Assembly: GCA_002707745.1 (NCBI GenBank)
Contig: PANU01000094.1
Coordinates: 1-34,847, forward strand
Origin: Flavobacteriaceae bacterium
Lineage (GTDB): Bacteria; Bacteroidota; Bacteroidia; Flavobacteriales; Flavobacteriaceae
Reading direction: 5' to 3'
Length of the DNA: 34,847 nt
The position numbers and the translations under genes are program-made. Numbering within the stretch: position 1 is the first letter of the stretch; the number at the start of each line of letters is the position of its first letter. The notes under the pieces are model-generated. The model saw only the letters and a program-made list of their open reading frames with translations. It ran no database searches and was not told the origin of the DNA. Below, piece after piece: positions 14,819 to 34,601 of the stretch.

Positions 14819-14903
14819 GGAGAAATGGCAGAGTGGTCGAATGCGGCAGTCTTGAAAACTGTTGAGGGTCACACCTCCGGGGGTTCGAATCCCTCTTTCT
14901 CCG
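14819..14903 (+). tRNA. tRNA-Ser (UGA anticodon)
   Basis: An 85-nt class II tRNA. The acceptor stem GGAGAAA pairs with TTTCTCC (14896-14902), followed by discriminator G. The anticodon arm GCAGT-CTTGAAA-ACTGT gives anticodon TGA. A long variable arm and a T-loop (GGTTCGAATCC) are present. CCA is not encoded. Its 3' end is the integration site of the island: the last 12 bases plus CT recur at the far end of the island, so the gene remains intact after integration. Confidence 0.95.
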
Positions 14904-14905
14904 CT
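14892..14905 (+). repeat. attL core: 3' end of tRNA-Ser
   Basis: CCTCTTTCTCCGCT at the end of the tRNA is repeated exactly at 33939-33952. With the integrase gene beginning 236 bp inside, this is the left attachment site core of the island. Confidence 0.85.
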
Positions 14906-14926
14906 GAAAGACCCACAATGGGCGCT

Positions 14927-14961
14927 AAAAAACCTGTAAATCGTTGATTTACAGGTTTTTT
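14927..14961 (+). terminator. Rho-independent terminator after tRNA-Ser (element copy)
   Basis: A 16-bp perfect stem (AAAAAACCTGTAAATC / GATTTACAGGTTTTTT) with a GTT loop and a T-run ends tRNA-Ser transcription on the island side. It comes with the element; the original chromosomal terminator is now at 33959-33992. Confidence 0.85.
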
Positions 14962-14998
14962 CATTTTATTCCATATCACTTGATATCAATTAATATCA

Positions 14999-15054
14999 GT
15001 TAAAAAGGGACTAATTCGGTGTCACTTAAATCCTTTCTCCAACTGACACCGAAT
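14999..15054. repeat. Integrase arm-type sites at the left end (two, facing each other)
   Basis: ATTCGGTGTCACTT (15014-15027) lies within a 28-bp block (14999-15026) that recurs at the right end. AACTGACACCGAAT (15041-15054) is the inverted copy of the motif. A third copy is at 15137-15150. Repeated short motifs near both element ends, apart from the core, are the usual pattern of integrase arm-binding sites. Confidence 0.6.
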
Positions 15055-15136
15055 AATATATAAATATTTGATATTCATTTATTTAAAATAATATCGTTTT
15101 AAATATTTTTCACTACATTGAAGTAAATTTAAATTC

Positions 15137-15150
15137 ATTCGGTGTCAGTT
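15137..15150 (+). promoter_or_regulatory. Arm-type motif overlapping the integrase start
   Basis: ATTCGGTGTCAGTT is identical to the reverse complement of 15041-15054. The integrase GTG start (15142-15144) lies inside it, so integrase binding here could repress its own synthesis. Confidence 0.5.
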
Positions 15151-16353
15151 CAACTTTCAATATTATTCTATATTAAAAAAAGTAAGGCCAATCTTCAGGG
15201 ACTTACTAATATTTATCTCCGCATAACCCTAGACGGTAAGCGGGCTGAGTGCAGTATTAATCGAAAAGTACATATTGATTTATGGAATAGTAGATCGCAA
15301 AAAGCATTAGGGAATTCACCAGAGAATCAGGAAATAAATAGAGAGATTGACTTTATTAGAAACAAAATCTACACCATAGAACAAAAGTTTCAACGAGATG
15401 GAATAACGTATACCGCTACTCAATTACGCGATGTATATCTAGGTAAGGACAAAACAAAAAAGATGCTTCTAGAAATCTTCCAAGTGCATAATGACGAAGT
15501 TGATAGTCTTATAGGTAAAGACTTTGCTGCCGGAACTGCTGAACGGTATCGTACTTGCAAAAAACACGTAGCAGACTTTATTAAGAAGAAATACAAGAAA
15601 AATGATATTCCTGTACAGGATGTAGATCATAAATTCATCACAGGCCTAGAATACTACCTTAAGACGACGCGTAAGTGTGCGCACAACTCTGCCATAAAGT
15701 ACATCACCAATTTTAAAAAGATCATTCGTATTGCACACGCCAACGATTGGATCGATAAAGATCCCTTCTTACATTGGAAAGGCAAACTTAAAATTGTTGA
15801 ACGAGAGTTTTTGACGGAAGAAGAAATTCAAAAAATAATAGATCTCGATTTGCAAATGGAACGGCTCGACCAAGTCCGTGATATTTTTATTTTTTGCTGT
15901 TTCACGGGTTTGGCGTATGCCGATGTTAAAAGACTTAAAAGGGGTGATATAAGCATAGGTGCAGATGGTGAGGAATGGGTGAAAACAAAACGCTCTAAAA
16001 CCGATACCCGAAGTAACATCCCGATTCTACCCATCGCTAAAACAATTATCGAAAAGTATAAAGATAATGAGCTATTGATAGAAAAAGATTTGGTCTTACC
16101 GGTTCTCAGCAATCAAAAAATGAATGCTTACATCAAAGAGATTGCAACCTTGGCGGGTATTACTAAAAACCTAACCTTTCATTTGGCCAGGCACACCTTT
16201 GCTACTACAGTAACTTTAACGAATGGTGTGCCCATTGAATCCGTGAGTAAGATGCTTGGTCATACCAATCTGAAAACTACCCAACATTATGCAAAAATCC
16301 TTGATATGAAGGTAAGCAAGGATATGGAAATTTTGAGGAATAAGTTTAAGTAG
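15142..16353 (+). CDS. int: Tyrosine recombinase / site-specific integrase
   Basis: This 403-residue integrase is of the Bacteroidota type. An N-terminal Arm-DNA-binding domain (about 5-95) is followed by a SAM-like core-binding domain (110-205) and a catalytic domain (220-400). Catalytic residues seen are Lys in the TKRSK hairpin (about 282-284), His347 and Arg350 in HLARH, His374 in MLGH, and the nucleophile Tyr383. The first arginine, usually in TGLR, is replaced (TGLAYADVKRL), as in IntDOT-like integrases. The GTG start at 15142 lies inside an arm-type repeat; no earlier in-frame ATG is seen. It should integrate and excise the island at tRNA-Ser, and it converges on the minus-strand gene 3 bp downstream. 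Confidence 0.93.
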   Translation: MSVQLSILFYIKKSKANLQGLTNIYLRITLDGKRAECSINRKVHIDLWNSRSQKALGNSPENQEINREIDFIRNKIYTIEQKFQRDGITYTATQLRDVYLGKDKTKKMLLEIFQVHNDEVDSLIGKDFAAGTAERYRTCKKHVADFIKKKYKKNDIPVQDVDHKFITGLEYYLKTTRKCAHNSAIKYITNFKKIIRIAHANDWIDKDPFLHWKGKLKIVEREFLTEEEIQKIIDLDLQMERLDQVRDIFIFCCFTGLAYADVKRLKRGDISIGADGEEWVKTKRSKTDTRSNIPILPIAKTIIEKYKDNELLIEKDLVLPVLSNQKMNAYIKEIATLAGITKNLTFHLARHTFATTVTLTNGVPIESVSKMLGHTNLKTTQHYAKILDMKVSKDMEILRNKFK

Positions 16354-18337: not shown

Positions 18338-19189
18338 TTAAACTTTGGACCATCTCATATTTAAAGCCCATTTAGTATGTTGTCCTATGTCGTATTCTTT
18401 AACTTTTTCGGTTGGATTGTGACCTAGTGAGTCAATCAGATTAGAACTTGCCCATTTTATTTTAGAAGAATCTCCTTTTTTTAATAGGCTTTTTAACTCC
18501 TGACGTTGTTCTGGCGTTGGTACTAAATCTAATATATCATACTGTAAAATTTCATAACAATCTCCCCACCCTGGTGTTCTTTTAATAGGTGTTAAAACTT
18601 TACCTCTGAAATTATAGTTTACGTATGGAAAAACTTCTTTTGAGAGAAAGCTTTCTCCATCACCAATTATCAATTCTTCATAGAATTCTCTCCAATGACT
18701 TACTTCTCGATCTACCCCTTTATTAAACCAATCCAAAAATTTAATAGCATTTTTAGCTGGTATGAACAAAGCGAAGTCATCTTTCATGATTCCACTATTT
18801 GGTAATTTTGGATCATCCATTGCATCGAAATCTGTCTTTAATTTAGATCGTGTGTCCTCAAGTATTTTATACTTTCCACCCACAAGCTGAAAGTGACCAT
18901 AATTATTGTTTTTAACTAATAGATATTTGTCTTCTACTTTAATTCTATATAGATATGACATCGAAAACCGAATATTTTTTCCACGGATAGCCAAGTATTT
19001 ACTAAAAATGGACATCCATAACCTTTTTCTATTGGTATAAATATACTCTCCTAATAATTCTAGCAGAACCAGTAACCCAGCTATACCATACCAAATAACT
19101 TCTTTTTGAAAATTTGAGCCACTAAGCTTAGTGTACCCAAAAATTATAACTCCTATTGCAATTAATGCTTGAAAAATTCTTCTAATCAT
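18338..19189 (-). CDS. cap16: CBASS effector: two transmembrane helices plus SMODS-associated Nudix-like domain (Cap16-like)
   Basis: This 283-residue protein has two N-terminal membrane helices (about 4-20 and 30-50), a basic connector, and a C-terminal domain (about 65-283) like the SMODS-associated Nudix domain. FQLVGGKYKI (100-109) matches a Nudix entry strand-loop. WREFYEELI (166-174) matches the REUXEEXG half of the Nudix box (Arg167, Glu168, Glu171, Glu172), but the upstream Gly-x5-Glu part is degenerate. As last gene of the CBASS operon, in an ATGA overlap with the ATPase gene, it is the effector: it probably senses the cyclic nucleotide through the Nudix-like domain and damages the inner membrane. 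The binding-only versus hydrolase question is open. The name Cap16 rests on architecture. Confidence 0.8.
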   Translation of the reverse strand: MIRRIFQALIAIGVIIFGYTKLSGSNFQKEVIWYGIAGLLVLLELLGEYIYTNRKRLWMSIFSKYLAIRGKNIRFSMSYLYRIKVEDKYLLVKNNNYGHFQLVGGKYKILEDTRSKLKTDFDAMDDPKLPNSGIMKDDFALFIPAKNAIKFLDWFNKGVDREVSHWREFYEELIIGDGESFLSKEVFPYVNYNFRGKVLTPIKRTPGWGDCYEILQYDILDLVPTPEQRQELKSLLKKGDSSKIKWASSNLIDSLGHNPTEKVKEYDIGQHTKWALNMRWSKV

Positions 19190-20067
19190 TTTATTTCTGG
19201 GCTTGCTTTAACATTGTTAATAGTTTCTTTTAAAATATCAAAAGATAAAGGTTTAGAGGGATAAGCCATTGCTACAGCTTCAGGCAAAACTTTTAATCTT
19301 ACATCTGAAAATGAGTAACCTACTGGCTCACCTTCCTTCATAGATAGTTTCGCAAGCTCGCTTAATTCTGCATCTCTTAAATTCAATCCTCTTAGACTCT
19401 GAACATACAATTCTTTATACTCTTCTTCTGTGGGTCTTTTAAACTCTAGTATAATAGCAGCTCTTCTTAAAATAGCTTCATCTATAAAATGAAGCCTATT
19501 TGTAGACATAAATAAAATTGCTCTTCCATCCATTTCTCGTACCTCATCAATTTTCTGGATAAGCGTATTAACAGCTGCTTTCTCCTCTTGGTGCATTTGG
19601 CCTGTAGCTCTAGTTGTAGCAATTGCGTCAGCCTCATCTATAAGTAGGAAAGCAAGTCTTCTTTTACCTGCTTGGCTCTTTAATTCAGCAAATGCGTCAT
19701 TAACAAGTTTACCCATTTCACCGTGCATCCCTTCTCCACGCACTCTAGTACTCAATTTGAGAAAAAAGCCTTCTTTTTTAAGTTCACGAGTCATTTTATC
19801 TGCAATGCTTGTAGCTGAAATAGTTTTACCCGTTCCTGCATCTCCTGCCAAAATAATAAGTGGATATTTATCCTTTAATTGAGAAATTATTGGCAAATCA
19901 ACTTTATGGTGCTTTTTACTCCAATCTGATAAGCTATCTTTATCTAACAGTAGTTTTAGGTTACTATAAATCCTATCAAATTTAGATTGAAAACCTACTA
20001 AACTTTTTGTCTGTTTCTGTACTTCCGCATTAGGAAGGGTAATTATATTGTCGAATATATCTGCCAT
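19186..20067 (-). CDS. cap6: CBASS TRIP13-like AAA+ ATPase (Cap6)
   Basis: This 293-residue AAA+ protein has Walker A GDAGTGKT (75-82), Walker B LLIDEADA (141-148), sensor-1 Asn190 in MSTNR and an arginine-finger pair Arg201/Arg202 (AILRRAA). A small helical lid follows (C-terminal 80 residues). It resembles bacterial TRIP13/Pch2 proteins of type III CBASS, which disassemble the HORMA-CD-NTase complex and so keep the nucleotide cyclase off. The pore-loop stretch TRVRGEGMHGEMG (108-120) fits substrate threading. It overlaps the HORMA gene (TAATG) and the effector gene (ATGA), so expression of the three is coupled. Confidence 0.9.
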   Translation of the reverse strand: MADIFDNIITLPNAEVQKQTKSLVGFQSKFDRIYSNLKLLLDKDSLSDWSKKHHKVDLPIISQLKDKYPLIILAGDAGTGKTISATSIADKMTRELKKEGFFLKLSTRVRGEGMHGEMGKLVNDAFAELKSQAGKRRLAFLLIDEADAIATTRATGQMHQEEKAAVNTLIQKIDEVREMDGRAILFMSTNRLHFIDEAILRRAAIILEFKRPTEEEYKELYVQSLRGLNLRDAELSELAKLSMKEGEPVGYSFSDVRLKVLPEAVAMAYPSKPLSFDILKETINNVKASPEIK

Positions 20068-20579
20068 TATTTAAAATTAGTTTTTTGAACTTCATATGTT
20101 TTGCTTCCATATAATTGTGCTTTATCGGAACTTAAATGTGAGAATGATAAGTCTTCAGATGAGCTTGTCCAATTTATTTCAAAATCATCAGAAAATTTAC
20201 TTCTCTGATCGACCGATAGAGCGTGCCAAAAAGATGTATAACTTAGTACAACAGTCAAGTAAGTATCTTCATCTGAAGGCCAATCATAATTTTTGCCTGC
20301 TCTGTCACCTTCATTTGTATTACCATTATCGTTAACTGTAAATTTTGCAGCACGCACTTGGTATCCAGTATTATTCCTTTTTAATATTATGGTTACACAA
20401 GACAAGTACTTATTTTCTGCAAGTTTTAAAATGTCTTTACTTAATCTATCGACATAGGTTGTATCCCATTTCCCAGTTCTTCTGGCAATCATTCTTATAT
20501 CAGCTATACAGTTTTCGAATGTCTTACGAATATCTGTAACCGTATAGGTACTAGTTTTTGTAGTTGTGTTATAACTCAT
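20067..20579 (-). CDS. cap7: CBASS bacterial HORMA-domain protein (Cap7)
   Basis: This 170-residue protein has the layout of the bacterial HORMA family 1. The N-terminal helix (TYTVTDIRKTFENCIADIRMI) precedes a central beta region (LSCVTIILKR, YQVRAAKFTV). After a loop rich in Asn, Asp and Gly comes the C-terminal safety-belt-like segment (LSFSHLSSDKAQLYGSKTYE). In type III CBASS, HORMA proteins bind a peptide signal and then activate the CD-NTase. Assignment rests on pattern and on position between the CD-NTase gene (1 bp gap) and the TRIP13-like gene (1-bp overlap). Only one HORMA gene is present; many type III operons have one, some have two. Confidence 0.82.
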   Translation of the reverse strand: MSYNTTTKTSTYTVTDIRKTFENCIADIRMIARRTGKWDTTYVDRLSKDILKLAENKYLSCVTIILKRNNTGYQVRAAKFTVNDNGNTNEGDRAGKNYDWPSDEDTYLTVVLSYTSFWHALSVDQRSKFSDDFEINWTSSSEDLSFSHLSSDKAQLYGSKTYEVQKTNFK

Positions 20580-20580
20580 A

Positions 20581-21561
20581 TTATTTTATATTAAATGTTG
20601 GACCAAATACAGATTTCCATTCATTAATTGTATCACCTTCATTGTTTCTATCTTGGGCTAAGTTTAAGGTGTCAAACGCTTCCTCAGCCTCTTCTTTAAT
20701 CTCATTCCATTTAGAAATGTCTATTTTCTTTGCGGCATTATTTTCATTATTAGTATCATCCGCTATATAAATAGCTGTATTATAGTAAGGAACACTATTT
20801 ATAGCGTGCGCAAATTTTATATCTGGGAAAGAGGATTCACTTAAAAATTGAAAAAATCTAATTATAGCTTCTTCTACATTAGATTCAACACCCTTAGTTA
20901 TATCTAAATACCCTACGATTAGCTCAATTGCGAAGGATGAAATCCCTCCTTCATTGTCAAATGGTTTTAATTCTTTATAGTTTTTCCACCATTTAAGCGC
21001 TCTCACAATTGAGGTATAGCTTGGATTGGCTTTTCTTAGACTTAGAGAAAAATCAAGATGATTCTCTACACTTGTTATATATTTACCGCCACCACCTCGT
21101 TGTGGTTGCCATACATATCGAACTGGACTGTTAATTGGAACAACTGGAACAATGTCTACCTCTAACCCTGAACTATTAAATCTGATAGTAATAGATTTGG
21201 TATTCCCATCAGCATCGACATCATTAGGGATATCTTTGGTAGGGTATATTTCCTTTAGGTAATTAACAATATAATCGTGAACTCTCTTCAAATCATTTTG
21301 AAGATTATCGTCTCCAGTAACAAAAAGTACCAGATCGATGTCTATAGGATTATCTCCTGTTGCTTTTAAAATTGTGTGTTTTTTCCAGGAACCGGCAAGC
21401 AGGTATTTAGACACCTTCATTCCTGTACTTTCATCATTTTTAATTTTGTTCTCTAATTTCGATTTCAGATTATTAATCTGATCACGATATTTAGACATAT
21501 TATCCTTTTGTAGTTTTATTTTTTCTACAAAATGGCCAATTTCATTATTGTTTAACTTCAT
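20581..21561 (-). CDS. cdnC: CBASS CD-NTase (cGAS/DncV-like nucleotidyltransferase, CdnC-like)
   Basis: This 326-residue nucleotidyltransferase has an N-terminal helix, then the active site GSWKKHT (Gly57, Ser58) with metal ligands Asp74 and Asp76 (PIDIDLVLF) and Asp136 (LEVDIVPV). A C-terminal OAS1-C-like helical domain follows (about 170-326, containing the VRALKWWKNY helix). The C-terminal WKSVFGPTFNIK ending is like that of clade C CD-NTases of type III systems. It makes a cyclic oligonucleotide on phage sensing; which one cannot be told from sequence. It is the first gene of the operon, with a 23-nt palindrome 45 bp upstream that is shared with the Druantia promoter. Confidence 0.9.
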   Translation of the reverse strand: MKLNNNEIGHFVEKIKLQKDNMSKYRDQINNLKSKLENKIKNDESTGMKVSKYLLAGSWKKHTILKATGDNPIDIDLVLFVTGDDNLQNDLKRVHDYIVNYLKEIYPTKDIPNDVDADGNTKSITIRFNSSGLEVDIVPVVPINSPVRYVWQPQRGGGGKYITSVENHLDFSLSLRKANPSYTSIVRALKWWKNYKELKPFDNEGGISSFAIELIVGYLDITKGVESNVEEAIIRFFQFLSESSFPDIKFAHAINSVPYYNTAIYIADDTNNENNAAKKIDISKWNEIKEEAEEAFDTLNLAQDRNNEGDTINEWKSVFGPTFNIK

Positions 21562-21605
21562 CTATTAACAGTATTTAAAAATTAATACTGCAATACTACG
21601 ACCTT

Positions 21606-21628
21606 ACTATGCAAAGTAATTGCATAGT
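21606..21628 (-). promoter_or_regulatory. Palindromic operator before the CBASS operon (copy 1)
   Basis: ACTATGCA-N7-TGCATAGT spans 23 nt, 45 bp before the CD-NTase start. On the minus strand a TAGTATTG element (one mismatch to TAnnTTTG) follows at once, so a bound repressor would cover the promoter. The same 23-nt layout is found at 31031-31053. Confidence 0.75.
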
Positions 21629-21650
21629 TATCGGAAGGACTTGAGAGAAC

Positions 21651-21926
21651 CTAGTTTGCCTGGTTAAAGTCTTCCACAATTTTAAAAATCACATCAGCCT
21701 GTTTTTCAGTAAAAACACCATCTATACCCATACTGTGGAAGTTCTTAAAGGGTGAGTCATATAGTTTACTAGGCTCGATAGTTCCATTTGTGGTTAAGAC
21801 TTTTTTGATGGTATCTAGAAACTCTATTTGAATTGCATTGAGCTGAAAGTCATTAATGAATTTAGCAAAAGCAGCATCTACCTTTTCAGGACTCAAGCCC
21901 GTTAATGATATTATATATCTTCGAAT
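21651..21926 (-). pseudogene. hsdR: hsdR C-terminal relic (type I restriction enzyme)
   Basis: About 91 codons before the first upstream stop match only the C-terminal domain of HsdR. The visible segments are RRYIISLTGLSPEKVDAAF, LNAIQIEFLDTIKKVLTTNG, EPSKLYDSPFKNFHSMGIDG and VFTEKQADVIFKIV. That is the helical tail that docks onto the methylase; the nuclease and helicase domains are absent. The only start is a TTG at 21896 and no function is expected. It lies between druE and the CBASS promoter on the same strand, a sign that a type I system once stood here and was replaced. Confidence 0.72.
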
Positions 21927-21962
21927 CTAAGATGATGTCTAATAACACTAAGTGCGTAAAAT

Positions 21963-22009
21963 TAGATTACTCAAATGGTAGGTCAAATGGATAGTATTTG
22001 AGTAATCTA
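21963..22009 (-). terminator. Terminator hairpin overlapping the druE stop codon
   Basis: 14-bp perfect arms TAGATTACTCAAAT (21963-21976) and ATTTGAGTAATCTA (21996-22009) with a 19-nt loop. The druE stop (22007-22009) lies in the 3' arm. On the minus strand a short T-rich stretch follows. Confidence 0.6.
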
Positions 22010-25000
22010 GTTTTCGATACTAATATTATAAATTATATCATAGGCTACATCTTTACGGATGTCAAAAACTTGATTTTCCATTTTCATATCCCTAGAGGTT
22101 AATCGCTCTACAGGCTTTAAACCGTGTGCTATTCCTGCATCGATTCTAATACTAAATGCAACCTTACTTGATTTAAAGTCGAAGTATCTATAATGTGGTA
22201 ATCGTTTTTCTTCTTTAAAGTTTACTTCAAAATCAAAATGAGTTCCTAACTCTTTTAAATCATAGACATAGTCATCCAACTCCTTATAGTTGTGAATGAT
22301 ATACTCTGGATAGTTAGGTCCTCTAAAGTCTGATTTAGCTAGATGTACATTAAGCGCAGAAATATTGATAGGCCATATTTGCTTTATCTGATTTATAAAC
22401 TGAAGCATTAGCCTAAGGGAAAACTCCGACTGATTGTATTTGTCGTAATAGGATACCTCAAATGATTGATTAGCTATTCTAGACAGAAAATCTTCTGTGT
22501 TATTAAGATTTGCATTCATTAATTGTGCAATATCATTGCTTTGGTTGTTTCTAGGTATACTGCCTTTTATTCTAGATTCATAGAGGTTGCCGGCTGCTAG
22601 TTGCGGTATGATAAAATCAGGATATTGATGTGTAGTAGCTTTTTCTATTTTAAAAAACTTCTCATTGATACCAGATGTCCAATCTTCACTTAATGAGTCG
22701 TAATCTCCTTTGGAAATAAAATGTATAGTCTCTCCGTTATTTAAGACTACTGATAAGTGAATAGGGTAGTCTAAAAACGAATTTCCAGAACCTTGCTTAA
22801 GATTGAAATTATGAGACAACAAATAGGCTGATAACTTTTCCTGATTGTTCTTGAAATTAACAGTTCCTTCTACTACGAGGTTTATAGCAATTCTATCTCT
22901 TTTCAGCTTGTCAATCCATACAATATCATCTACTTGCCACTCTGAAATTTTATTATTGATGTGTATGTATACTTCTTTGATACCTCGTTGATACTTTAAA
23001 ATGTTTATCTCATCTGCAAGACGACCAAATACGAAACTTACATTGTCATCTTCTGCTTGTAATTCTTTGGGTAATTGATTTTCTATTGCAGATTGCAACC
23101 ATTGTATTGCTAGATGACGTTCTAAATCTTCTATATGCCACTGCGTGCTTCTATCAATAAGACATTTTGTACAAGCAGTCTGGCAATCACAATTTTGTAA
23201 AACATCTAAAGCGAGTTTTAATATTTTCTCTGCATACCATCTAAATTGAGAAGCATAACCTGCACCACCTTTTGCAGTATCGTAAATGAATATCGTTTGA
23301 TATCCTTTGTACTGTTTTATTCCAAAACCTAATTCAGCCTCTTCGATAGCAAGATGTTCTGCAAGTGATTTTGAGAAAATGACTCCTAGGGAGTAGGCTA
23401 ATTTCTTATCGTTAACATAGGATTGATTTCTGTTTTTTAAACGTATTTCTGTAAAGTCAGTTTTGAACCTACTTCCCAATATAATATGCTCTCTTATGTT
23501 TTGCGCAGAACACGTGCTTTGTCCGTTGCCATCTCTTCCGCCTCTGAGCCTTCTGTGGCCTTCTAATTTTTCTGTCGAAGTTTCTACCTTACCACAATCT
23601 AAACATAAACTATAGCCTTCGCCTTCACCAGTATTATAAAAAAGTATCTGTGTGTCTTTTTGATTTGCACTAGTTCTAAAATCAATAAAGCGATTTTGAT
23701 TACTCGCCCAAGGTTCAATATTTAATAAAAGTGGTTCCAAATATTGAGGTTTACTTTTTTCTGAAACTACACGAGTCGGTGTACTATACAAATCGATAGA
23801 AAATCCAGCAGGTTCTACCAGTTCTGTGAGAGAGCCTTTATGCTCTCCTAACTCTAAACCTTGAAAAGCACCAATATTACACTTGGGGCAAGTATCACTA
23901 ACTTTCTGTTCTATATCTACTGTTCTCTGATAACCGCAGTTTTGACATCCTTGAATTGCATTTCTATCAGCGGATTTTCCCCAGTTGTTTTTCATTACAA
24001 TCCCGGAAGATTTATAATTCAATCCATCAATAAGAATACTATTACCTGGAGCAAATTCTGTTAGTGCTCTAGCTATAGGATAACTTGGATTTGATTTAAA
24101 CATTGGGTTTTTGCTTTTCAAGTCTGACATTGTGATTTTTTCAAAATCAACAATACCTGTTGGTAACCCAGCATTCGGTAAGAAGCTTTCTTCTGCCAAA
24201 TAGTTTAAAACAAATTTTTGTAAAAATTGACCCTTTCTATAACCAACAGCCTTGTAGGCAGGACTAGCATCACCAAACTGTTTTTTTAATTCTTCTAACT
24301 TTTTATCATAACCATCTCGCTGCGTCCTTATTCTTTGGGAAATCTGTTTAAAATTATCCGATACTTTGGCAATTAATTCTTCTGCGCTATCATCAGCAAG
24401 TGGCGTATCCTTAACTACATTTTCTAACTGCTCTTTTATAATTGAAGGATCAATACTATCTAACCAATTTAGAAAGCTGTGCGCGATAGTTGGTGTATTT
24501 TCATAAAAGAATTTTTCAATATTTTCTCTTACATTAAGACCTTTATTCTCATTTTCTTGATGCCTAATAAAGATTCCAAACAGAAGTGAATTAACGTGCC
24601 TTTCTACGATATTTCTACTATCGAAGGCTAATATAGGTGGCGCGATTTTGTGTTCTAGTGCCCATTTTGGATTATTCATAGTTCGCAACCCAATAGGATT
24701 AGGAGCGCAGAATGTTAATGCTAGTGATTTATTCTCTGCACGACGACCAGCACGACCAGTTCGCTGTAAATAATTTGCTGGCATAGGTGGCACATTACTC
24801 ATTACCACTGCAGAAATACCGCCTATGTCCACACCCATTTCCATAGTAGTAGAACAACTTAAAATATTTATTTCACCATTTTCAAATTGAGTTTCTAACT
24901 CCTTCAGGCGTGTTTTATCTTGTTGAGCAGAGTGCTCTCCTGCTAGGTATAACTTATCATAATCAAAGATGCGCTCGTGCAAATCGTTCCATAATCCTTT

Positions 25001-27910
25001 GTCTCTAGCTTCTTGACTGTTTTCCGTTAACCAAGCATCCACCTGGTCTACTGGTATGGCTTCGTTATTCTCATTAAGATGGTATGGATTTGAGAATGTT
25101 GGGAATTGATGATTTTTGGTATCGTCTATTTTATAGTTAGAAATATTGTCAGATTCTAAATTTCCCTTTATTAGTGGGGAATACCCTCTAAATACTTTAT
25201 CAACTAATCGGCTTGTTACTGGACAAAGAAATTCTTTTCCTGCTATTTCAAATTGAGTGCTTTCCAGAAAATCAAGAATAAAACCATCGCCATCTACTTT
25301 CAGAATTTTCTGTTGTAATGTTCTCCATATCTTTTCTAAAAGCTCGTTAAGTTGATCTTCTCTACTTTCTGTAATATCGCCTCTATCGTGCCAATCTAAT
25401 CCTGCACAAATCAATAAAACTAACCTTGATTGTGTTATGGAATTAGGGTTGTAGAGGCGCCATTTTTTTGCATTTACTATTGCAGTATTGGACGGATAAA
25501 TGGGTTCTGATCGATAAAACTTAGATGTAAATAATCGCATCGCATCATCAAAAGAAAAATTGAAGTTATATCTGATGATATAATCAGCAGCTATCTTAAG
25601 GAGGGATTGCCATTCCTCTTTGTTTATACCTAATTTATTTGCAATTTCTGGAGCGACTATATCATCTAACTTTGGATAGACTATATTCACCAAACCTAAA
25701 TTTTCTAGCGAACGTTCTCTAGGAATTCTACGCGCAAATTGATCATACAGTAATGCTTTTGCATAAGCTTCATTTTCAGTAGCTAAATTATTCCCTCTAG
25801 CTCCTTTTTTGAAAAGTATTTTGAAATCATTCTTTTCTTTTATTTCATCAATAATTTGTTTCCAAGATGATCTGCTAGAAATCAAGCTTATACCATTACC
25901 ATTTTGTGCAATTCTATCCTCAACGTCTTTTAACTTCGTTTTGAGTTCTGCTTGTAAAAAAGGTGGTGCCGTTTCAATCTGATTTAAATAATAAGCTCTT
26001 TCTTCTAATAATTCCTCTTGACTTCGATCAGATGTATTAGCATATAGTTTATTCAATAGATAATGATACACTTGGTAACGAATCCAGTCACTCTCACTAT
26101 CTATATTAATTAATGCTGAGATTTTAGCAGTTCCTTGTCTACTATCAGTAAAAGAAATGTACTTTCTGCCTTTGTAAAGTGTTTTTATTGTTTGCTTATC
26201 AATGGTGTCGGTTTGATCTAAAACGATGTCTGACAAAATCCTATTTGTAAATGCTGATGAAATTCTAAAGTGTATCGGATTACTATTTTGATTTCCACAA
26301 TGCGGGCACTGATCGCTGTCCGTCATCAGAAAGTCGTCACCACTTTGTATCTCATTATTTTGATTGATATCACAGGGAAAAAGCTCTTGGTTTCTATGGT
26401 TTTGACCAGTTGCATTTTTAATTAACCTAACCAAGTTTCTGCTAGTAGATTCTTGTGGTTCATCTTCATCGATATCAGTTTCTATACTAAACGCTTCATA
26501 ACCTAATGTTGCTTTTTGAGTTACTCTATCTGTACCTTTAACACCCTTAGACCGTTCACCTTCTAACATCATATTTCCGCAACTTCTACAAGCAACAAGC
26601 TCAAGTAATGGATGTCCACAGGAACATTTTTTTCCTGCAATGGTGTACATTGTACCTAATGCTTTATTTGGTTTAGCATCTTTATGTTTAACACACTTAA
26701 TGTTTGTACAAACGTAAACACCACCAATACCTCTCGTAAAAAAATGACCACGTACTGGTAGCAGGTTTGCACCACCTATTTGCTGTTCTGCCAGCGTATC
26801 AATAACTGAAAGTTGATCTAATTTATTTGTTATATGCAGATGTTTACCTATTTCACTTTGTGTAATACCTTTTTTAAGCAAAAATTGTTCTCTCAGTAAT
26901 TTAATATTGTTCTGCGACAATGTTTCAGATAAATTAGGTATGTCCTTATCTACAATTTGGTCAGTAACACGTTTACCAGTTATTACTTCTATTTGATCTA
27001 CTGAAATGCCACATAAGTCTGACATAAACCTCTTCAAGGTTTCGGTATTTCCAGTACCTACGGTTGCAGAAGTAATTGCAAATCTTAGATCATTAATATC
27101 TACCTCGAAAGCAGAAACTACACGTCTAATGAGTAAAGCCATTTCGGCTGCCTTAGAGCCTGTTAATGTGTGTGCTTCATCTAATAAAATCCATCTAAGC
27201 GTACCTTTTGATTTTTCAAGAATAGGCACATCTGCATTACGCACTAGCATATATTCCAGCATCGTAGGATTAGTAAATAAAATTTGTGGAGGCGTTTCTC
27301 TAATTTGTTCTCTTGAAACCAACTCAGGTAACGCTTTTTTCATTTTCGCCTTGCTATTTTCTTTGTTAGGTGTGTCTCCTGTTAATAGTGCGTATTTCAC
27401 ACCGTCTAAAGCAGAACACCAAGCGTGCATTCTCTTTCTTTGACTAGCAATTAAAGCGTTTAATGGGTACAAGAAAATAGCGTTGACACCTTGTTTATTC
27501 TTACAATTTTGATGTATATCTTGAAGTACTGGTAACATAAAACATTCTGTCTTACCAGATCCTGTTCCTGTTGTAACCGCTATTGATTTATTTTTATTGA
27601 GTAACATTCTCCAGCTCTCAAGCTGATGTTTGTAAGGGTGTCGATCTTTTGGGAATTGAAAATCTTTGTCCTTAATAGAAGATAATGCGCTAATAAATTC
27701 CTCTTGAAAAACAGTCGAAGTCTCGCCAAACGTTAATTTGTCTTGTTCCCAAGGAAACGTGTTCTGAAAAACAGCATCTGCCATAATAGGTTCTTGAGAT
27801 AAAAGAAATTTAAAATAATCCTGCATCTCTTTATCTCCAGTCGCCCAAAGTGATAAAATAGCGTCGGTTAATCTGTTTTCGGTTTTATGATAAAAGTTTC
27901 TAAAATTCAT
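22007..27910 (-). CDS. druE: Druantia DruE: large DEAD/DEAH helicase with DUF1998 domain
   Basis: This 1967-residue superfamily 2 helicase has Q-motif-like [10 protein letters not shown] (91-100), motif I TGTGSGKT (114-121), motif Ia [10 protein letters not shown], motif II DEAH (244-247), motif III SAT (281-283), and, much later, motif [10 protein letters not shown] and motif [11 protein letters not shown]. Zinc-finger-like pairs (CRSCGN, CPHCGN, CQNCGY with CPKC, CLDCGK) and a C-terminal DUF1998/MZB region ([13 protein letters not shown], then [11 protein letters not shown]) follow. Size and domain order fit DruE of Druantia. The gene starts 4 bp after druH. DNA translocation or unwinding during phage defence is the inferred role; the exact mechanism is not established for this type. 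Confidence 0.82.
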
Positions 27911-27914
27911 AATC

Positions 27915-30900
27915 TTAGCTTCTGGTTAAGGCGTGTAACAAGGTTTTATTATAAAAATCTGGTTTGAGATATTGACTGTATTGAATATTGCGCCTTATAA
28001 CTTCGCGTTTTTCACCGCCACCCCAAATCGGGAATTCTTGTTTAATATTATTAATAGATTCTGCAACCGCAATAGGAGATTGAATAAGTAATCTTACTTG
28101 ATGGTGATCTTCAATTTGAATATTATAATCCTTAGCTATTTTAGGGCTGTTATATGGCAACTCGTTCAATACACGCGTTCCTAATTGTGATCTTAGATCT
28201 CTTATATGACTTTGTAGCACAGGTTGCGAATTAAACTTATCTCCCATAATAAAATTATAAAGCTGATGCAAACCATTCTCTTCTAGATAGTCTTTAATTA
28301 ATTTGAGAATTCTAGTTGGAAATTCTTTTTTGTAATTTTCGTCAATATGTTTAAAAGTGTCATTTAGATGCTCTAAAACTTTTAGATACCCACTTTGCCA
28401 ATTCTCCTGACCAATCCAATGAAAACAAAAACCTAAATCCATTTCCAATTCAGGTATATCTTTCTGTATATATTCTATTGGATCTACTTGATTAATGCCT
28501 AGAAAAAGAAATGCTTTAGCTGCAACTTCGGAGCTGCGAGAAATTGCCCTAAGCTGATCAAAAGTGGAAAATGGAAGCTCGTATTGCGTACAAATTTTAA
28601 AATAGCTTAAAACTTGTTGCCAGATATCATCTTTAAATTCTGTAATTGAGAGTTCTTTATGAAAATTCTCAATACGCTCTCTGCTATCTACAGTTAGAAC
28701 TTGTTCGCTTGTTTTTACAAAACGTGGCATTAACTGATTGCCTTCCTTTTTTGAAGAAATGATAATGAACTGGTTTGAGATATCTGTATTTGGAATTAAA
28801 TAATTACCATCATTTCGTGAAATCGGAATTATATCTATATCCTTTGCATTACAATTAACAGGTACCGCAAAAAGATCTAAATCATCATTGCTATCATATA
28901 AAGCAACTTGCCTAACCATTTCATTAGTAACATCCAGCGTATGATTAAAACCTGAAATCTCAAACGTCTTTTTATTGTTGCCTTCAATTAATTCGAGACA
29001 AACCGTATTTCTATAATTCATAGCATCTGCTAAATAAAAAAGTCTTACAATTTCATCTTTAAAGGAAATTACAGGTTGAGTAGGTTCTTTTATAAGCTTT
29101 GTGATTTTAACATCGGTTTTTAAACTATTTTTAATAGTTAAAGTAGTCTCTCTATCTCTAGTGCTTAAAATACGCATACCATAAAGATTTGCCAGAGATA
29201 GTTTTTGATCTTCAGGGATTATTTGACCATCACTATCAGTAATAATCATACCTTGAAACGGAGATAGTAAATTAAAATGTAATTTCTTTTTACCGGCGTT
29301 TCCGATAGCGCCTTTTATGCTCGTTGGTATTTTTGAGTATTCAGTATTTAGTTTTAATGAATAACTATTATTGGATTCTGTTATTTCTACAAGGCTTGAT
29401 TCATTGAGTTTACAGGTAAAATAATCTAGATGTTCAAATGCAATTGACGCTGAGTAAATAGATTGCTCTGTATACCTCGCCTTGAGGTTACCAATGTTGA
29501 AGAATGTATCATAAGCAACAAGGTGATCTTTTACTATCTTTATTTCAAAACAACCTGTTTTAATATACCTCAGGGTTGTAATATCATGCCACAAATCTTT
29601 AGACTTGTGTTTACGCAAATACACTTTGAAACGATTTCTTGAGATGTCATATCCATTTTCGTCAAAAACCAAAACTTTAGGGACTGTTTTAACAACTGGC
29701 AAATTTGCTTTTAACATCCAGTTTGGTTTTTGTGTTTGAATTAACCAGTCAAATGATGCTACACCAGTAAGAAAAACTCGCTCATCATTTAAGCCTGTAG
29801 ATTGTACTGTAATCTCACCCTCAAATGGCATCCATTGTAGTGAATTTGAATATAATGAAACTTGGGAGGTAGGAAAGTTAGACCACCAGTTACTAGGAAA
29901 TAATACTGCTGCCTCTTTACTAGATACCGAGTTACTTTTTACTAACCGCCATTCGTTATCATTGAATCTACTCCATAGGCTTGGTTCTTCAAGATTGGGA
30001 ATAATTTGTACAAAATCAGATACCTCTATTTTTTCATCATTACAGATAACATAAGTGTAGGGTAATCCATCAGAAATGTTCCATTCTTTATTTTGTTGAT
30101 TATACCAGTCCGTCTTATAACTGTTGTTATTCATTCTCCGGAATACACAGATTAAATTGTCATCCAAATAGAATTGATATTCTTTTTCAGCAATCGAAAA
30201 GCCTAAAATGTCTTGTAACGTTTCTTGAGTGTAAGTATTGGCGAGACCTAATCTTAGAGTAATTCTACACTTATCATCATCGAAACGCAGTAGCCAATAG
30301 TTTTTAGGTTTTGACTGTCTCACCTTTTTAGATATTGATGCGCTCTTAACCTTCAAAGAGCTTGAAATTTCTTTTAGGGTATCTTCAGATTCTAGCAATT
30401 TGTCAAATTCACCATCATTATTAAGAATAGATTTAACTATCTCAAGACAATTCTCATAGACCATATCATTCTGACTAGATTTAGGTAGTAAGTCTACGAT
30501 ATGTGATTTAAACATAAAGTCTTCTATAGATGAAGGTTGTTCTTCTAAAACTGCTTCTAAGAAATCTTTATATTTTCCTTGATTTTCTGAAATGTGCTTG
30601 AGCGGAAGCCCACCTTGTAAGAGAAGTGTTTTAAATCGAAGGGTATTTTGTTTTTTTATCCACTTTATCCCTAGTACTTGAGCTCCTTCAATTGCAAGTT
30701 TATAAAATGACTGTTCAGTAAAGTTATACTGCGCATTACCTCCAACGGAATTAAAGACTTCCTGCTTACTTGGTATGCCACCGTTATAGTTCTTTTCCCA
30801 CCATAACGCATAATAGAGTGTTACGTCTCTTGGGTCTATGTCTAAAGGTCTGGCAAATTGTAAATACTTTTTCAATTCATTAAATTCCTCTTCGTTTAAA

Positions 30901-30974
30901 GAATATTTCCAAAGTGACCTACCATCATGTTTTGATAAATTATGTTTGGTTAATAGAGAAGATAAGAAATTCAT
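27915..30974 (-). CDS. druH: Druantia type III DruH (STY4851/ECs_5259-like)
   Basis: This 1019-residue protein has no catalytic motif I can see. Its opening ([20 protein letters not shown] and [22 protein letters not shown]) and its partner match the large protein found directly upstream of a DUF1998 helicase in STY4851-type loci, which I equate with DruH of Druantia type III. The middle looks beta-rich, the ends helical. The role is unknown; it is probably a binding or recognition subunit for DruE. The ATG at 30974 is preceded by a 78-bp spacer holding a shared operator and a TTATTTTG promoter-like box. Confidence 0.7.
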
Positions 30975-31030
30975 TAATCAATTAGTTATTACGGTTGCAT
31001 TGTTTTTTGAATTAGCAAAATAAAGTGATA

Positions 31031-31053
31031 ACTATGCAGTATAAATACATAGT
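31031..31053 (-). promoter_or_regulatory. Palindromic operator before druH (copy 2)
   Basis: ACTATGCA-N9-CATAGT spans 23 nt, the same length and the same left half as the CBASS copy at 21606-21628. It lies 57 bp before druH, and its last base is the first base of the WYL gene stop triplet. Confidence 0.72.
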
Positions 31054-32054
31054 TAATTTTCATAATAGGTTTGCATCTTATTTGAATGCTCTTTCAATTG
31101 CTCTCTTAATATTTCTGGCTCTAATACTTCAACATCTTGACCATAGGACAATAATTGCTGTACTAATTCTTTATTTATTATAGTCTCAAACCAAACTTGA
31201 TCTTGTTTTTCTTCTTCAAAAAACTCTTCAAAGTCTGGTTGAAATGGTTTTGTTTTAAAATAGTTTTCTCTCCCATTATGGAAGCGTAAGACTACCTTTT
31301 CAATTTGCGCTTTAATAGGTCTTACAACTCCTACCATTGTTCTAAAAAATGTTTCCCAATCAGTATTTGATTCTATGTATTCAACATCTTCAATTTCATT
31401 GAATTCTAAAATTCTTTCATCTAATGGGATACTCCATTCTGGAATATCTCTTGTTTTGTTTAATCCAAAGACAAACCATCTTCTATTGTATTGCTTCAAT
31501 ATGTGAGGATGAAATTCAAAAACTGAAGAAGACTCATCCTTAAATCCTTTAAAATTAATTTGTAACACCTGTTGTTTCTTAATAGCTAGGTATAAAGGCT
31601 TTAAGAATTTTATACCTTTGTATTCTTCATTATTATCATAAAATAAGATACTTTTAGCATCATTTGATTGCTCCTCTTCATCTTGGAACTTAATTAAAGC
31701 TTCTGCTAGTCTGTTATATTTTGGATGATTTTCAAATCTAGATAACAGTTGTTGAGCAGCTTCAACTAAGTATTGTTCGTATTTCTGTAAAGGTCGCTGG
31801 GCGATGGTAAAGTTGGCATCAGAATATGTATATGTTCTTTGCCCTTCAGGAAGTGGCGCATCGAAACCATTCACTTTGTCTCTAAATGTTTTAATGTCTT
31901 CACGTAACGTTCTTTCTGAAATTTCTTCGCCAGGATATAGTTCAGAAATACCTTCATTGAGAGTTCTTAATAACTCTTCAAAGCCATATGATTTATTGCG
32001 AAAACAATAATCTAGAATATTATATCTCAAATGTGCGTGCTTGCTATTTGCCAT
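31053..32054 (-). CDS. WYL-domain transcriptional regulator (CapW/BrxR-like)
   Basis: This 333-residue protein has an N-terminal winged helix (about 8-60, with ISERTLREDIKTF as recognition region), a WYL domain (about 145-225; the core pattern is FEFHPHILKQYNRRWFVFGL at 179-198) and a C-terminal WCX domain (about 240-330). Proteins of this layout (for example CapW, BrxR) repress defence operons by binding a palindrome as dimers and respond to nucleic acid or other ligands. The start overlaps the hipA stop (TAATG), so it is translationally coupled to hipBA. It is followed at once by the druH promoter with the palindrome it may bind. Confidence 0.88.
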   Translation of the reverse strand: MANSKHAHLRYNILDYCFRNKSYGFEELLRTLNEGISELYPGEEISERTLREDIKTFRDKVNGFDAPLPEGQRTYTYSDANFTIAQRPLQKYEQYLVEAAQQLLSRFENHPKYNRLAEALIKFQDEEEQSNDAKSILFYDNNEEYKGIKFLKPLYLAIKKQQVLQINFKGFKDESSSVFEFHPHILKQYNRRWFVFGLNKTRDIPEWSIPLDERILEFNEIEDVEYIESNTDWETFFRTMVGVVRPIKAQIEKVVLRFHNGRENYFKTKPFQPDFEEFFEEEKQDQVWFETIINKELVQQLLSYGQDVEVLEPEILREQLKEHSNKMQTYYEN

Positions 32055-33316
32055 TATTCTATTCTCTTTATTTCTTTTTGGATTACCTTGATTATATTCT
32101 CAGGTATCTCTAATTCCACAGCGACCTCCGTCCATCTTGGAATCAAATTCTGCACATCCTCAATAATTCCCTTGGGATTTTTAATGACAAACTCTTCGGC
32201 AATAGTTAGCAAGTCTTTTACGGTAATCTCTGTCCGCTTTCCATTAATAGACAAAGCTCGTGAGGTAGTTTTAAATGTAAATAGCGGGTTGAGTGCATAG
32301 GTCAAATCGTATGCGGGTGCTACATTCCATTTGTTTTCTTCTTTGTTATAGATAAAACTATGGTTCTTTAAATGGTCGTCTACATTTCTAAATACAACAT
32401 TGAATACCATACGCTTAAAAAGCTGTTGTACATCTTTGTGTGGTACTTCTAGGCCTAATGCTACCTTAAAAACATTCTCATACGACGAGTTCTCCGGTTG
32501 ACTTTTAAAATCCCAACCTGTTAAACCTGTTACGGTAAATACGTGTTGTTTTTCTCCGTGTTGTCTATCATACCTGAGTGTGGCGAAGTGCCTTTTTTCT
32601 ATCAGCTTTGATTGCATCATATCAACACCTGCTTCTTGCGCTAATAAATAATAGGCGTATTCTACTTTTTCTTTATTGTAGCCATCGCTATCATCAAGGT
32701 GTAGCTTAACTAGATAGTGATTGTAGTCCTCGCTTGTTTCCCTATCTCCAGCTATGATTTTACCAGTTTCTTTATGTTCGGATATTAAGATTTTTGGTCT
32801 AGCGCCACCTGCAGACGTCCCAATCTTGAAAACGTTTAGTAAAGACAATTCATCAAGGGCTGCCCCTGACGTATCCTCTTTTAGTTTTAATACTTTTTCT
32901 AAGATGTTAATTATTTCATCGATGTTTATAGATGATGTACTAGGTAGCTCTTTTACGGGTTTATACTCTAAGGCTCCCATACCACGATCCGCTACATAAG
33001 CCAACTGTTCCAACGGTGTCACTTTTTGGATACCTCTTGTTGTTAACCATTCTTGAAAAATGATATTTCCAAAAGTATCTGGCAGGGAATCAGCTATCAT
33101 TGGTGGTAAACCTTGAAACGTATCTTGTTGGTATTCCGTAAATACCTGCGCCTGTTTGGTACGTTTGAAAATAAAGGGAAAGAGCTTTGAGTATTTGCCA
33201 GACTCTAAGAACTCAGGATTATATTGAAAAAAAGATTTGCCTTGGTCTATATCGTAGCCTATTTTGCCAATCTCTTGGCCAAAAGCAATTACATCTATAA
33301 TTTTATCTCTAGCCAT
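32054..33316 (-). CDS. hipA: HipA-family serine/threonine kinase toxin
   Basis: This 420-residue protein has a HipA N-terminal subdomain (about 1-120) and a kinase-like HipA C-terminal domain. Seen in it are the glycine-rich loop IGTSAGGARPK (165-175), Lys204 in YLVKLHL, the catalytic loop NVDDHLKNHSF (311-321) with a catalytic Asp, and the metal-binding AYDLTY (Asp337). All key kinase residues are kept, so it may be active. E. coli HipA phosphorylates glutamyl-tRNA synthetase and induces dormancy; the target here is unknown. It starts 3 bp after hipB. The full-length fused kind is expected to be held off by HipB. Confidence 0.9.
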   Translation of the reverse strand: MARDKIIDVIAFGQEIGKIGYDIDQGKSFFQYNPEFLESGKYSKLFPFIFKRTKQAQVFTEYQQDTFQGLPPMIADSLPDTFGNIIFQEWLTTRGIQKVTPLEQLAYVADRGMGALEYKPVKELPSTSSINIDEIINILEKVLKLKEDTSGAALDELSLLNVFKIGTSAGGARPKILISEHKETGKIIAGDRETSEDYNHYLVKLHLDDSDGYNKEKVEYAYYLLAQEAGVDMMQSKLIEKRHFATLRYDRQHGEKQHVFTVTGLTGWDFKSQPENSSYENVFKVALGLEVPHKDVQQLFKRMVFNVVFRNVDDHLKNHSFIYNKEENKWNVAPAYDLTYALNPLFTFKTTSRALSINGKRTEITVKDLLTIAEEFVIKNPKGIIEDVQNLIPRWTEVAVELEIPENIIKVIQKEIKRIE

Positions 33317-33319
33317 TTA

Positions 33320-33583
33320 TTAATATAATGAAATGTCATTTTGATCAACAATGACTTTATTTATTTGCTTTGTTATGGATTGTAATAATCCAAAATGATT
33401 TGCTACTTTTAAAATATTATCGAGTGTAGCATTTTTACCATTCTCGATGTTTTGAATGGTGGTGCTTGAGACATCAAGCACTTCTGCAAGTTCGTCTCTA
33501 GATAGCTCATTTGATTTACGAAGTACTTTACACGCCTCGCCAATCTTGACTTTAACATCTTTTATCGTCGTTATCTCTAACAT
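33320..33583 (-). CDS. hipB: HipB-like XRE-family antitoxin/repressor
   Basis: This 87-residue protein has a Cro/XRE helix-turn-helix (about 18-66, with SRDELAEVLDVSSTTIQNIE) and a short C-terminal tail. It is directly upstream of the HipA gene, which is the standard order for hipBA, and should neutralise HipA and bind its own promoter. An inverted repeat at 33594-33638 just before the ATG is a likely operator. The start ATG at 33583 fits the family length (E. coli HipB is 88). Confidence 0.88.
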   Translation of the reverse strand: MLEITTIKDVKVKIGEACKVLRKSNELSRDELAEVLDVSSTTIQNIENGKNATLDNILKVANHFGLLQSITKQINKVIVDQNDISLY

Positions 33584-34013: not shown

Positions 34014-34307
34014 TCGAAGATTTTTATAAGCGGATAAAACATAAAAGCCCAGAGACTGCGATAGCAGGATCGAGCTTTATTGTAAGGTGTGGAGATAATG
34101 GGGATCAACGCAGTTAATCCTTTTATATAGGCGAAGACTTTTAAAAGCGGATAAAGCACAAAAGCCCAGGGACTGCGATAGCAGGATCTAGCTTAATTGT
34201 AAGGTGTGGAGATAATGGGGATCAATGCAGTTAATCCTTTTATATAGTCGAAGATTTTTAAAAGCGGATAAAACCCAAAAGCCAGAGACTGCGATAGCAG
34301 GATCGAG
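34014..34307. repeat. 117-bp tandem repeat, two full copies and a partial third
   Basis: Copies at 34014-34130 and 34131-34247 are nearly identical, and 34248-34307 is a partial third. Each holds CTGC-GATA-GCAG, a small hairpin, between AAAGCCC and GAGCTTT-like flanks. It is non-coding and on the chromosome side of attR. Confidence 0.75.
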
Positions 34308-34311
34308 TTAC

Positions 34312-34601
34312 TTCGACTGTGCTCAGCACACGCTTATTGAAATGAGAGGAGATGTTAGGGATGAGTAATCCTTAGTATACCATGCATTTATAAATTATAA
34401 AGATCGTTTTATTTAAGCTTAGTTGTATTGTGTGTCTTCCAAAAAGTAGGTTATGGAACTCTTATGTTTTCTATAATCAGCGTACAGATGTAGCAACACC
34501 TTCTACGGTTAAGAAATCAAAAATTTGAAAAGAAAGAATTTCAGCCTAAACCTGAGCCGTTTAATAAAGAAACCTGTTTTCACAATCCAAACACAACGAT
34601 T
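34312..34601. other. Non-coding spacer with a dispersed flavobacterial repeat
   Basis: TTCGACTGTGCTCAG (34312-34326) is the reverse complement, with one change, of 18034-18048 and resembles the CTGAGCGCAGTCGAA repeats scattered in flavobacterial genomes. I see nothing else in the rest of this AT-rich stretch. Confidence 0.4.

Follow-up and report, generated by a model that had tools for sequence, protein, structure and literature searches.

Shared palindromes at a Druantia and a CBASS promoter

We analysed a 34,847-nt stretch of the Flavobacteriaceae contig PANU01000094.1 (assembly GCA_002707745.1), hereafter referred to as the window, which contains a defence island with two immune operons and a gene for a protein with a WYL domain (Table 1). 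Two known systems were recognized from their genes: a complete type III gene set of the cyclic oligonucleotide-based antiphage signalling system (CBASS) in one operon, with CD-NTase, HORMA, TRIP13 and effector (PADLOC and Pfam), and the type III Druantia genes DruH and DruE (PADLOC). A preliminary description of this DNA had named these same systems, together with a WYL gene that ends at a palindrome, and all of these genes were correctly identified.

Each operon is preceded by a 23-nt palindrome, here called the box. The box on the CBASS side (21606–21628) reads ACTATGCA-AAGTAAT-TGCATAGT, with perfect 8-bp arms, and 44 nt separate it from the CD-NTase start codon (21561). The box on the DruH side (31031–31053) reads ACTATGCA-GTATAAA-TACATAGT, with arms paired at seven of eight positions. 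An interval of 56 nt separates this box from the DruH start codon (30974), and it shares its last base with the WYL stop codon (31053–31055). The preliminary description had placed both palindromes correctly and had noted, also correctly, that they have the left 8 and the right 6 bases in common. The exact pattern was present at these two places only in the whole assembly (2.76 Mb, 82% complete), and the control pattern, read backwards, gave no match. When up to three mismatches were allowed, the window contained six matches against 3.04 expected, and 12 of 100 shuffles reached six. The pattern alone is thus uninformative within the window at this level, and the case rests on comparison with other genomes.

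For this comparison, a motif matrix made from 28 sites adjacent to WYL genes in other genomes, with the window left out of training, was applied to the window. The CBASS site scored 32.6 bits and the DruH site 21.5 bits; elsewhere in the window the highest score was 9.5 bits, and 300 simulated windows (first-order Markov) reached at most 19.3 bits. No motif match of at least 10 bits was detected in the window besides the two sites, and no box was found before the WYL gene; the earlier claim that the window holds no third copy was therefore right at the level of motif scores. A chance origin of the palindromes was rejected on the basis of the exact-copy search, the permuted motifs described below and the simulated windows.

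Table 1. Predicted operators, promoter elements and genes of the window
Feature	Position	Strand	Basis or remark
WYL box 2	21606..21628	-	Predicted operator of CBASS operon; 32.6 bits with motif from other genomes
WYL box 1	31031..31053	-	Predicted operator of druH-druE; 21.5 bits with motif from other genomes
−7 promoter element of CBASS, TAGTATTG	21591..21598	-	Exactly 7 nt after box
−7 promoter element of druH, TTATTTTG	31016..31023	-	Exactly 7 nt after box
Second inverted repeat in CBASS 5′ leader (CAGTATT ... AATACTG)	21569..21590	-	Part of distal-slot cassette
WYL regulator, 333 aa	31053..32054	-	Pfam PF13280, PF25583; structure model and Foldseek
DruH (Druantia type III)	27915..30974	-	PADLOC DruH3
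DruE (Druantia type III helicase)	22007..27910	-	PADLOC DruE3
HsdR C-terminal remnant (type I)	21651..21926	-	81–82% identity over 89–91 aa to HsdR C-termini of G098 and G040
CBASS CD-NTase	20581..21561	-	PADLOC Cyclase, Pfam SMODS
CBASS HORMA protein	20067..20579	-	PADLOC HORMA, Pfam bacHORMA_1
CBASS TRIP13-type AAA ATPase	19186..20067	-	PADLOC TRIP13, Pfam AAA
CBASS effector, 2TM and SMODS-associated NUDIX	18338..19189	-	PADLOC 2TM effector, Pfam Sa_NUDIX
HipA-like protein, directly upstream of WYL	32054..33316	-	Pfam HipA_C, Couple_hipA
HipB-like HTH protein	33320..33583	-	Pfam HTH_3

Association of the box with WYL genes in related islands

Within the family, 83 of 299 genomes had a match to the WYL protein, and a scan of a species collection gave 38 named WYL loci, 30 of which were full length at 62–87% identity; the training sites of the matrix were taken from these orthologs. 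When all 4-mer dyads with gaps of 0–20 were counted in 170-bp stretches flanking 30 WYL loci, including that of the window, TGCA-N7-TGCA was the commonest dyad (10 of 30 loci; mean 0.05 and maximum 1 in 100 shuffles). In 27 of the 30 named orthologs, the first base of the box lies at −1 to +3 relative to the final base of the WYL stop codon, and in L111 and L113 it lies 75–77 bases beyond the stop. Some boxes of distant relatives are located upstream of the WYL gene. Overall, the position and sequence of the box track the WYL gene and its clade.

We then counted sites in 33 islands, namely, the 30 named loci, the window, G040 and G209 (1.22 Mb in total, in unequal stretches of 20–41 kb; L108, 23.6 kb). 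This set leaves out L120 (48% identity), L123, L125, L126 and L128 (at most 36%) and the fragments L127, L129 and L130; L125 and L126 carry a box elsewhere in the locus. L099 and G098 are one record, as are L107 and G261, and each was counted once. The islands contained 68 sites of at least 18 bits, of which 28 had served for training and 40 were held out; 100 column-permuted motifs yielded 0.43 sites on average and 5 at most. At least one site was present in all 33 islands, at least two in 24 and at least three in 10. Most sites were followed at a short distance by a start codon of the same orientation (54 of 68 within 60 bp and 60 of 68 within 150 bp, counting 65 tallied sites, the slot site of G261 and the two sites of the window). 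Among the 65 tallied sites, which exclude the window and one G261 site, the next gene was methyltransferase-like in 19 cases, DUF2130 in 14, a gene for a 587-aa protein in 9, DruH in 7, and Cap15 and CapV in one case each; 12 had no assignment and 2 ran off the locus end.

A common layout consists of the WYL gene, a box, a Druantia or methyltransferase-like operon, a box, DUF2130 with type I restriction-modification (R-M) genes, and a further box with a last operon. In Leeuwenhoekiella marinoflava (L141), this last operon is a Cap15 CBASS, and in G209 it is a CBASS with a CapV patatin effector, both 42 nt after the box; in G098 and G040, a Cap15 CBASS lies 593–633 nt beyond the box, with a 76-aa open reading frame (ORF) between. 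The two-operon regulon of Druantia and CBASS that was originally proposed is well supported for the window, but the regulon of most relatives exceeds that pair. As a side observation, the methyltransferase-like protein encoded after the WYL gene in L079 (L079:16252-18705) gave C-terminal histidine-kinase matches that were weak and below the cut-off.

As controls, 12–20 kb was read at each of 13 CBASS loci outside the 33 islands. No site of at least 15 bits was present at 12 of the 13 loci, where the two highest scores were 10.3 (inside an ORF) and 11.0. The siteless controls included an operon of the window type at 85–89% identity in G296, a genome whose only WYL match was weak (1.2e-8), and CapV-type operons (72–76%) in G228 and G267, that of G228 sharing its contig with a 30% WYL protein.

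A rigid arrangement of box and −7 element

Bacteroidota promoters have the consensus TAnnTTTG at −7, plus TTTG or TTG at −33. In 57 of 59 promoters, an interval of exactly 7 nt separates the box from a downstream −7 element that agrees with TAnnTTTG at five or more of six positions, and in 20 of them the element is exact; any other offset between box and −7 element occurred in at most four promoters. This element lies outside the box motif. In the methyltransferase, DUF2130 and Druantia promoters, little is conserved beyond these two elements. With this spacing, the box covers −33. None of the 59 boxed promoters had TTG or TTTG at 17–22 nt from the −7 element, compared with 8 (TTG) and 3 (TTTG) of 69 control promoters, counts that were themselves no higher than off register and hence carry no −33 signal. 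The same register was also met with in distant clades, at 10 places in 8 of 25 WYL loci; only fitting places were collected, without a control, and these numbers give no rate.

We next searched with the composite pattern of box and −7 element. In the genome of the window, it matched only the two window sites. In the 26 named WYL genomes, 42 matches were obtained in 22 genomes, compared with 2 for the backwards control; by their coordinates, read by hand, 36 of the 42 belonged to the island with the close WYL gene, 2 were near a second WYL gene and 4 elsewhere. All nine exact matches in these 26 genomes fell in islands, and among the 299 family genomes four of five exact matches were in WYL islands. 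Two distant WYL genes, in G208:C75 (28%) and G223:C53 (34%), had four and three composite matches, respectively, on the same contig. Multi-operon WYL regulons may be general, judging from such sequences.

Proposed co-regulation of the two operons and points against it

These sites, their register and their co-occurrence with the WYL gene are visible at the sequence level, as is the identity of the distal cassette described below. From them we infer that the WYL protein encoded at 31053–32054 binds both palindromes, which would be its operators, and that the druH-druE and CBASS operons respond jointly, forming an island regulon under one regulator. Co-regulation of the two operons by this single protein is very probable, being well supported by the transfer of the motif from other genomes, the sites in the islands and the boxless CBASS controls. 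A defence regulon run by a WYL protein, with two operons here and several in many relatives, is likewise well supported by the comparison.

A number of observations weigh against this interpretation. The DruH box is the weaker of the two, with 21.5 bits and one imperfect arm, and nine of the 33 islands, in stretches of differing length, have one site only. No box was found at L120, an ortholog or near relative, or at L127 and L130, where the WYL gene is truncated or reduced to a remnant of 34 residues, respectively; L124 (62% identity, with a TAA inside the WYL gene) has no box after the gene, but one 2.7 kb away. At the remaining CBASS control, in G297, a Cap15 CBASS is preceded by a box of 21.7 bits, and the genome gave no WYL match; the contig breaks off close to an HsdM fragment, roughly at the position expected for the WYL gene. 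G261 contains a second CBASS without a box, and thus not every CBASS of a WYL genome belongs to the regulon. With one mismatch, the composite pattern gave 67 matches in 50 of the 299 genomes against 25 for the control, and the fifth exact composite match is located in G085, a genome without a WYL match. A search for the palindrome with one mismatch found nine of the 299 genomes, against six for the backwards control. These nine include the genome of the window, G098, G040 and G261, each with a site within approximately 15 kb of the WYL gene; the latter three are among the four closest WYL genomes, of which the fourth, G209, has boxes at three mismatches. The other six places with one mismatch (G017, G026 twice, G042, G113 and G284) were inside ORFs and were set aside as chance matches.

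Three explanations in which the WYL protein is not the common regulator were considered. The boxes could be genuine operators of another protein, such as HipB or a regulator encoded elsewhere, with the WYL gene a mere neighbour. HipB is a likely DNA-binding protein encoded next to the WYL gene, and the box-like sites of G297 and G085 occur without a WYL match. However, HipA at 86–89% identity directly precedes an intact WYL gene only in L094, L104 and L121 among the named orthologs, besides the window; L095 has a relative at 27%, and the remaining orthologs carry the box without HipA. As the position and sequence of the box follow the WYL gene and its clade, we consider this explanation improbable. 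A slightly smaller probability was given to the copying of a promoter cassette among operons by descent, with no common regulator. Nearly identical copies of the distal cassette, together with the 5′ leader, do stand before unrelated genes, but the other boxed promoters conserve little except the box and the −7 element, and the boxes are absent from 12 of the 13 CBASS loci outside the islands. Finally, inverted repeats near gene ends could be RNA hairpins or terminators rather than operators; by eye, no T run follows the boxes, and the box is placed at a fixed distance upstream of the −7 element with an oriented centre, which makes this explanation hardly credible. Co-regulation by the WYL protein thus accounts best for the sites.

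The WYL protein and the sign of regulation

The WYL protein matched the Pfam models WYL (22.7 bits; cut-off 21.8) and WCX (41.8 bits), and its structure model (predicted local distance difference test, pLDDT, 78.6; predicted template modelling score, pTM, 0.49) has three N-terminal helices at residues 7–20, 25–39 and 47–58. No Pfam helix-turn-helix (HTH) model matched the protein, and the assignment of a DNA-binding domain therefore rests on the fold. In Foldseek, DriD ranked first, followed by PafBC, CapW and BrxR, with full-length TM-scores all at or below 0.50. The Protein Data Bank sequence matches of the WYL profile were WYL chains only, four of five being DriD entries by title. Taken together, the protein has the predicted make-up of a WYL-domain transcription factor, in which an N-terminal DNA-binding domain is followed by WYL and WCX domains.

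According to published reports, the palindromes of CapW overlap −10 (PMC9122588), the boxes of BrxR are 11-bp repeats with a 5-bp spacer and occur twice in one island (PMC9122601), the palindrome of SiwR spans −10 to −35 (PMC10693628), and DriD, an activator, binds over −35 at a constant distance from −10 (PMC12340889). A palindrome over −10, as for CapW, was not observed here, since 7 nt lie between the end of the box and the −7 element in 57 of the 59; nor was an operator at the promoter of the regulator itself found in the window, the box following the WYL gene in the orthologs. The register of the box agrees with a site of the DriD type, over −35 at a constant distance from −10.

Owing to this promoter geometry and the fold, we slightly favour a DriD-like, signal-dependent activator over a repressor; the geometry and fold lean towards activation without settling it, as a repressor on −33 would also work. 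The same regulon under a repressor similar to CapW or BrxR, in which a WYL dimer on −33 blocks polymerase at both promoters until a signal releases both, is a substantial possibility, though one that we place somewhat below even. CapW and BrxR, the described WYL proteins linked to defence, are repressors (PMC9122588, PMC9122601), a dimer at this position would obstruct polymerase, costly defence systems need silencing, and autorepression would fit the boxes that in some distant relatives also lie before the WYL gene. Against a repressor, the boxes of CapW overlap −10, whereas 57 of 59 boxes here keep the spacing that recalls DriD activation; Foldseek places DriD and PafBC above CapW and BrxR, at the pTM and full-length TM-scores given above; and the WYL gene of the window has no box before it. 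The preliminary description had proposed one WYL repressor holding both Druantia and CBASS. The single WYL protein for both operons is strongly supported by the orthologs, the CBASS operons at the distal position and the boxless controls, but repression seems somewhat less likely than activation. As to the signal, single-stranded DNA or another product of phage attack is our guess, by analogy with other WYL proteins.

A distal promoter with varying cargo

The distal promoter of the islands is followed by different operons. Four cargoes, namely, the CBASS of the window, the Cap15 CBASS of L141, the CapV CBASS of G209 and the gene for the 587-aa protein, follow nearly identical leaders resembling GTCGTAGTATTGCAGTATTAATCTTAAATACTGTT, with almost the same spacing to the start codon; in G098 and G040, the box and the −7 element are kept and the remaining leader is not. 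The repeat CAGTATT-AATACTG (21569–21590) is a conserved feature of the slot promoters, not of the other boxed promoters, and could be a second operator or a leader hairpin. These sequences indicate that the distal promoter is a fixed regulated slot, in which the cargo is exchanged while the promoter stays. In this reading, the box, the 7-nt interval and the −7 element form a rigid promoter unit, and the slot carries a type III CBASS here and a Cap15 CBASS, a CapV CBASS or the 587-aa gene in relatives.

The last 91 codons of HsdR are located upstream of the CBASS of the window, between DruE and the promoter of the CBASS, and in G098 and G040 HsdR precedes the slot; tblastn detected no further piece of HsdR in the window. 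This remnant suggests that the island of the window probably once carried an R-M operon, since lost, with the CBASS occupying the slot.

The 587-aa gene (e.g. L133:15650-17413 and L082:15667-17430) encodes a protein that, at the thresholds applied, matched nothing in Pfam, PADLOC or NCBIfam. By eye, it contains ATPase/helicase-like motifs of the Walker-A-like, DExx-like and SAT-like kinds. At E 1e-20, it was found in three of the 299 family genomes, always on a contig with a WYL gene, and it is a candidate defence gene.

Relation to known regulators

DriD, PafBC and SiwR are likewise WYL proteins, acting as activators under stress or DNA damage, and DriD, the best fold match, serves several promoters from a site over −35 at a fixed distance from −10, similar to the arrangement described here. 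However, these activators control repair, cell-fate and stress genes, whereas the WYL gene of the window is located in a defence island with −7 promoters of the Bacteroidota type. CapW, of CBASS, and BrxR, of bacteriophage exclusion (BREX) and the pEFER island, also combine a defence-linked WYL gene with palindromic operators, and the two BrxR boxes in one island are a precedent. CapW sites overlap the −10 element of the adjacent CBASS promoter, whereas the box of the window adjoins the WYL stop codon and lies on −33, and, unlike CapW sites, boxes of this type recur at separate operons up to approximately 23 kb away. RptR, the repressor of an Escherichia coli R-M/DarTG island, is likewise a single regulator for an island that combines two or more defence systems, but it is an unrelated small protein and acts at its own promoter with TAGCTA repeats. 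CapK–CapS is a regulator pair with palindromic sites before varied immune operons, but consists of STAS-wHTH and GHKL kinase proteins, is linked to an adjacent operon and includes no WYL protein.

In the open-access PubMed Central (PMC) texts, so far as their accessible passages go, we met with neither a WYL regulator whose boxes lie at separate Druantia, R-M and CBASS operons nor exchangeable cargo behind a fixed regulated promoter. By these sources, control of defence by WYL proteins is already known, and the boxes at separate operons with exchangeable cargo are the new part. It is an open question whether the systems in a shared defence island are switched jointly or one by one; here, a single short motif predicts, across 33 islands, which operons form one regulon, and it points to the regulator. 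We tentatively propose, in what we regard as a nearly balanced case, that the rigid promoter unit serves a WYL activator in controlling an immune regulon across the whole island and that islands evolve by exchange of defence operons behind this fixed promoter. If this is true, a newly captured system, such as any of the three kinds of CBASS or the ATPase-like 587-aa gene, would at once come under the island alarm, and the promoter slot would be a simple route for a new, potentially lethal system to arrive already regulated. The distant WYL clades with multiple boxes would then suggest a general wiring of Bacteroidota defence islands.

Other features of the window

HipA genes close to that of the window also precede the WYL remnants in L128 and L130. 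At 14819–16353 of the window, a tRNA-Ser adjoins a tyrosine recombinase gene, and no repeat of at least 17 bases of this tRNA-Ser was found elsewhere in the window. At 34030–34320, direct repeats with a period of approximately 119 bases were noted by eye in a stretch without clear genes.

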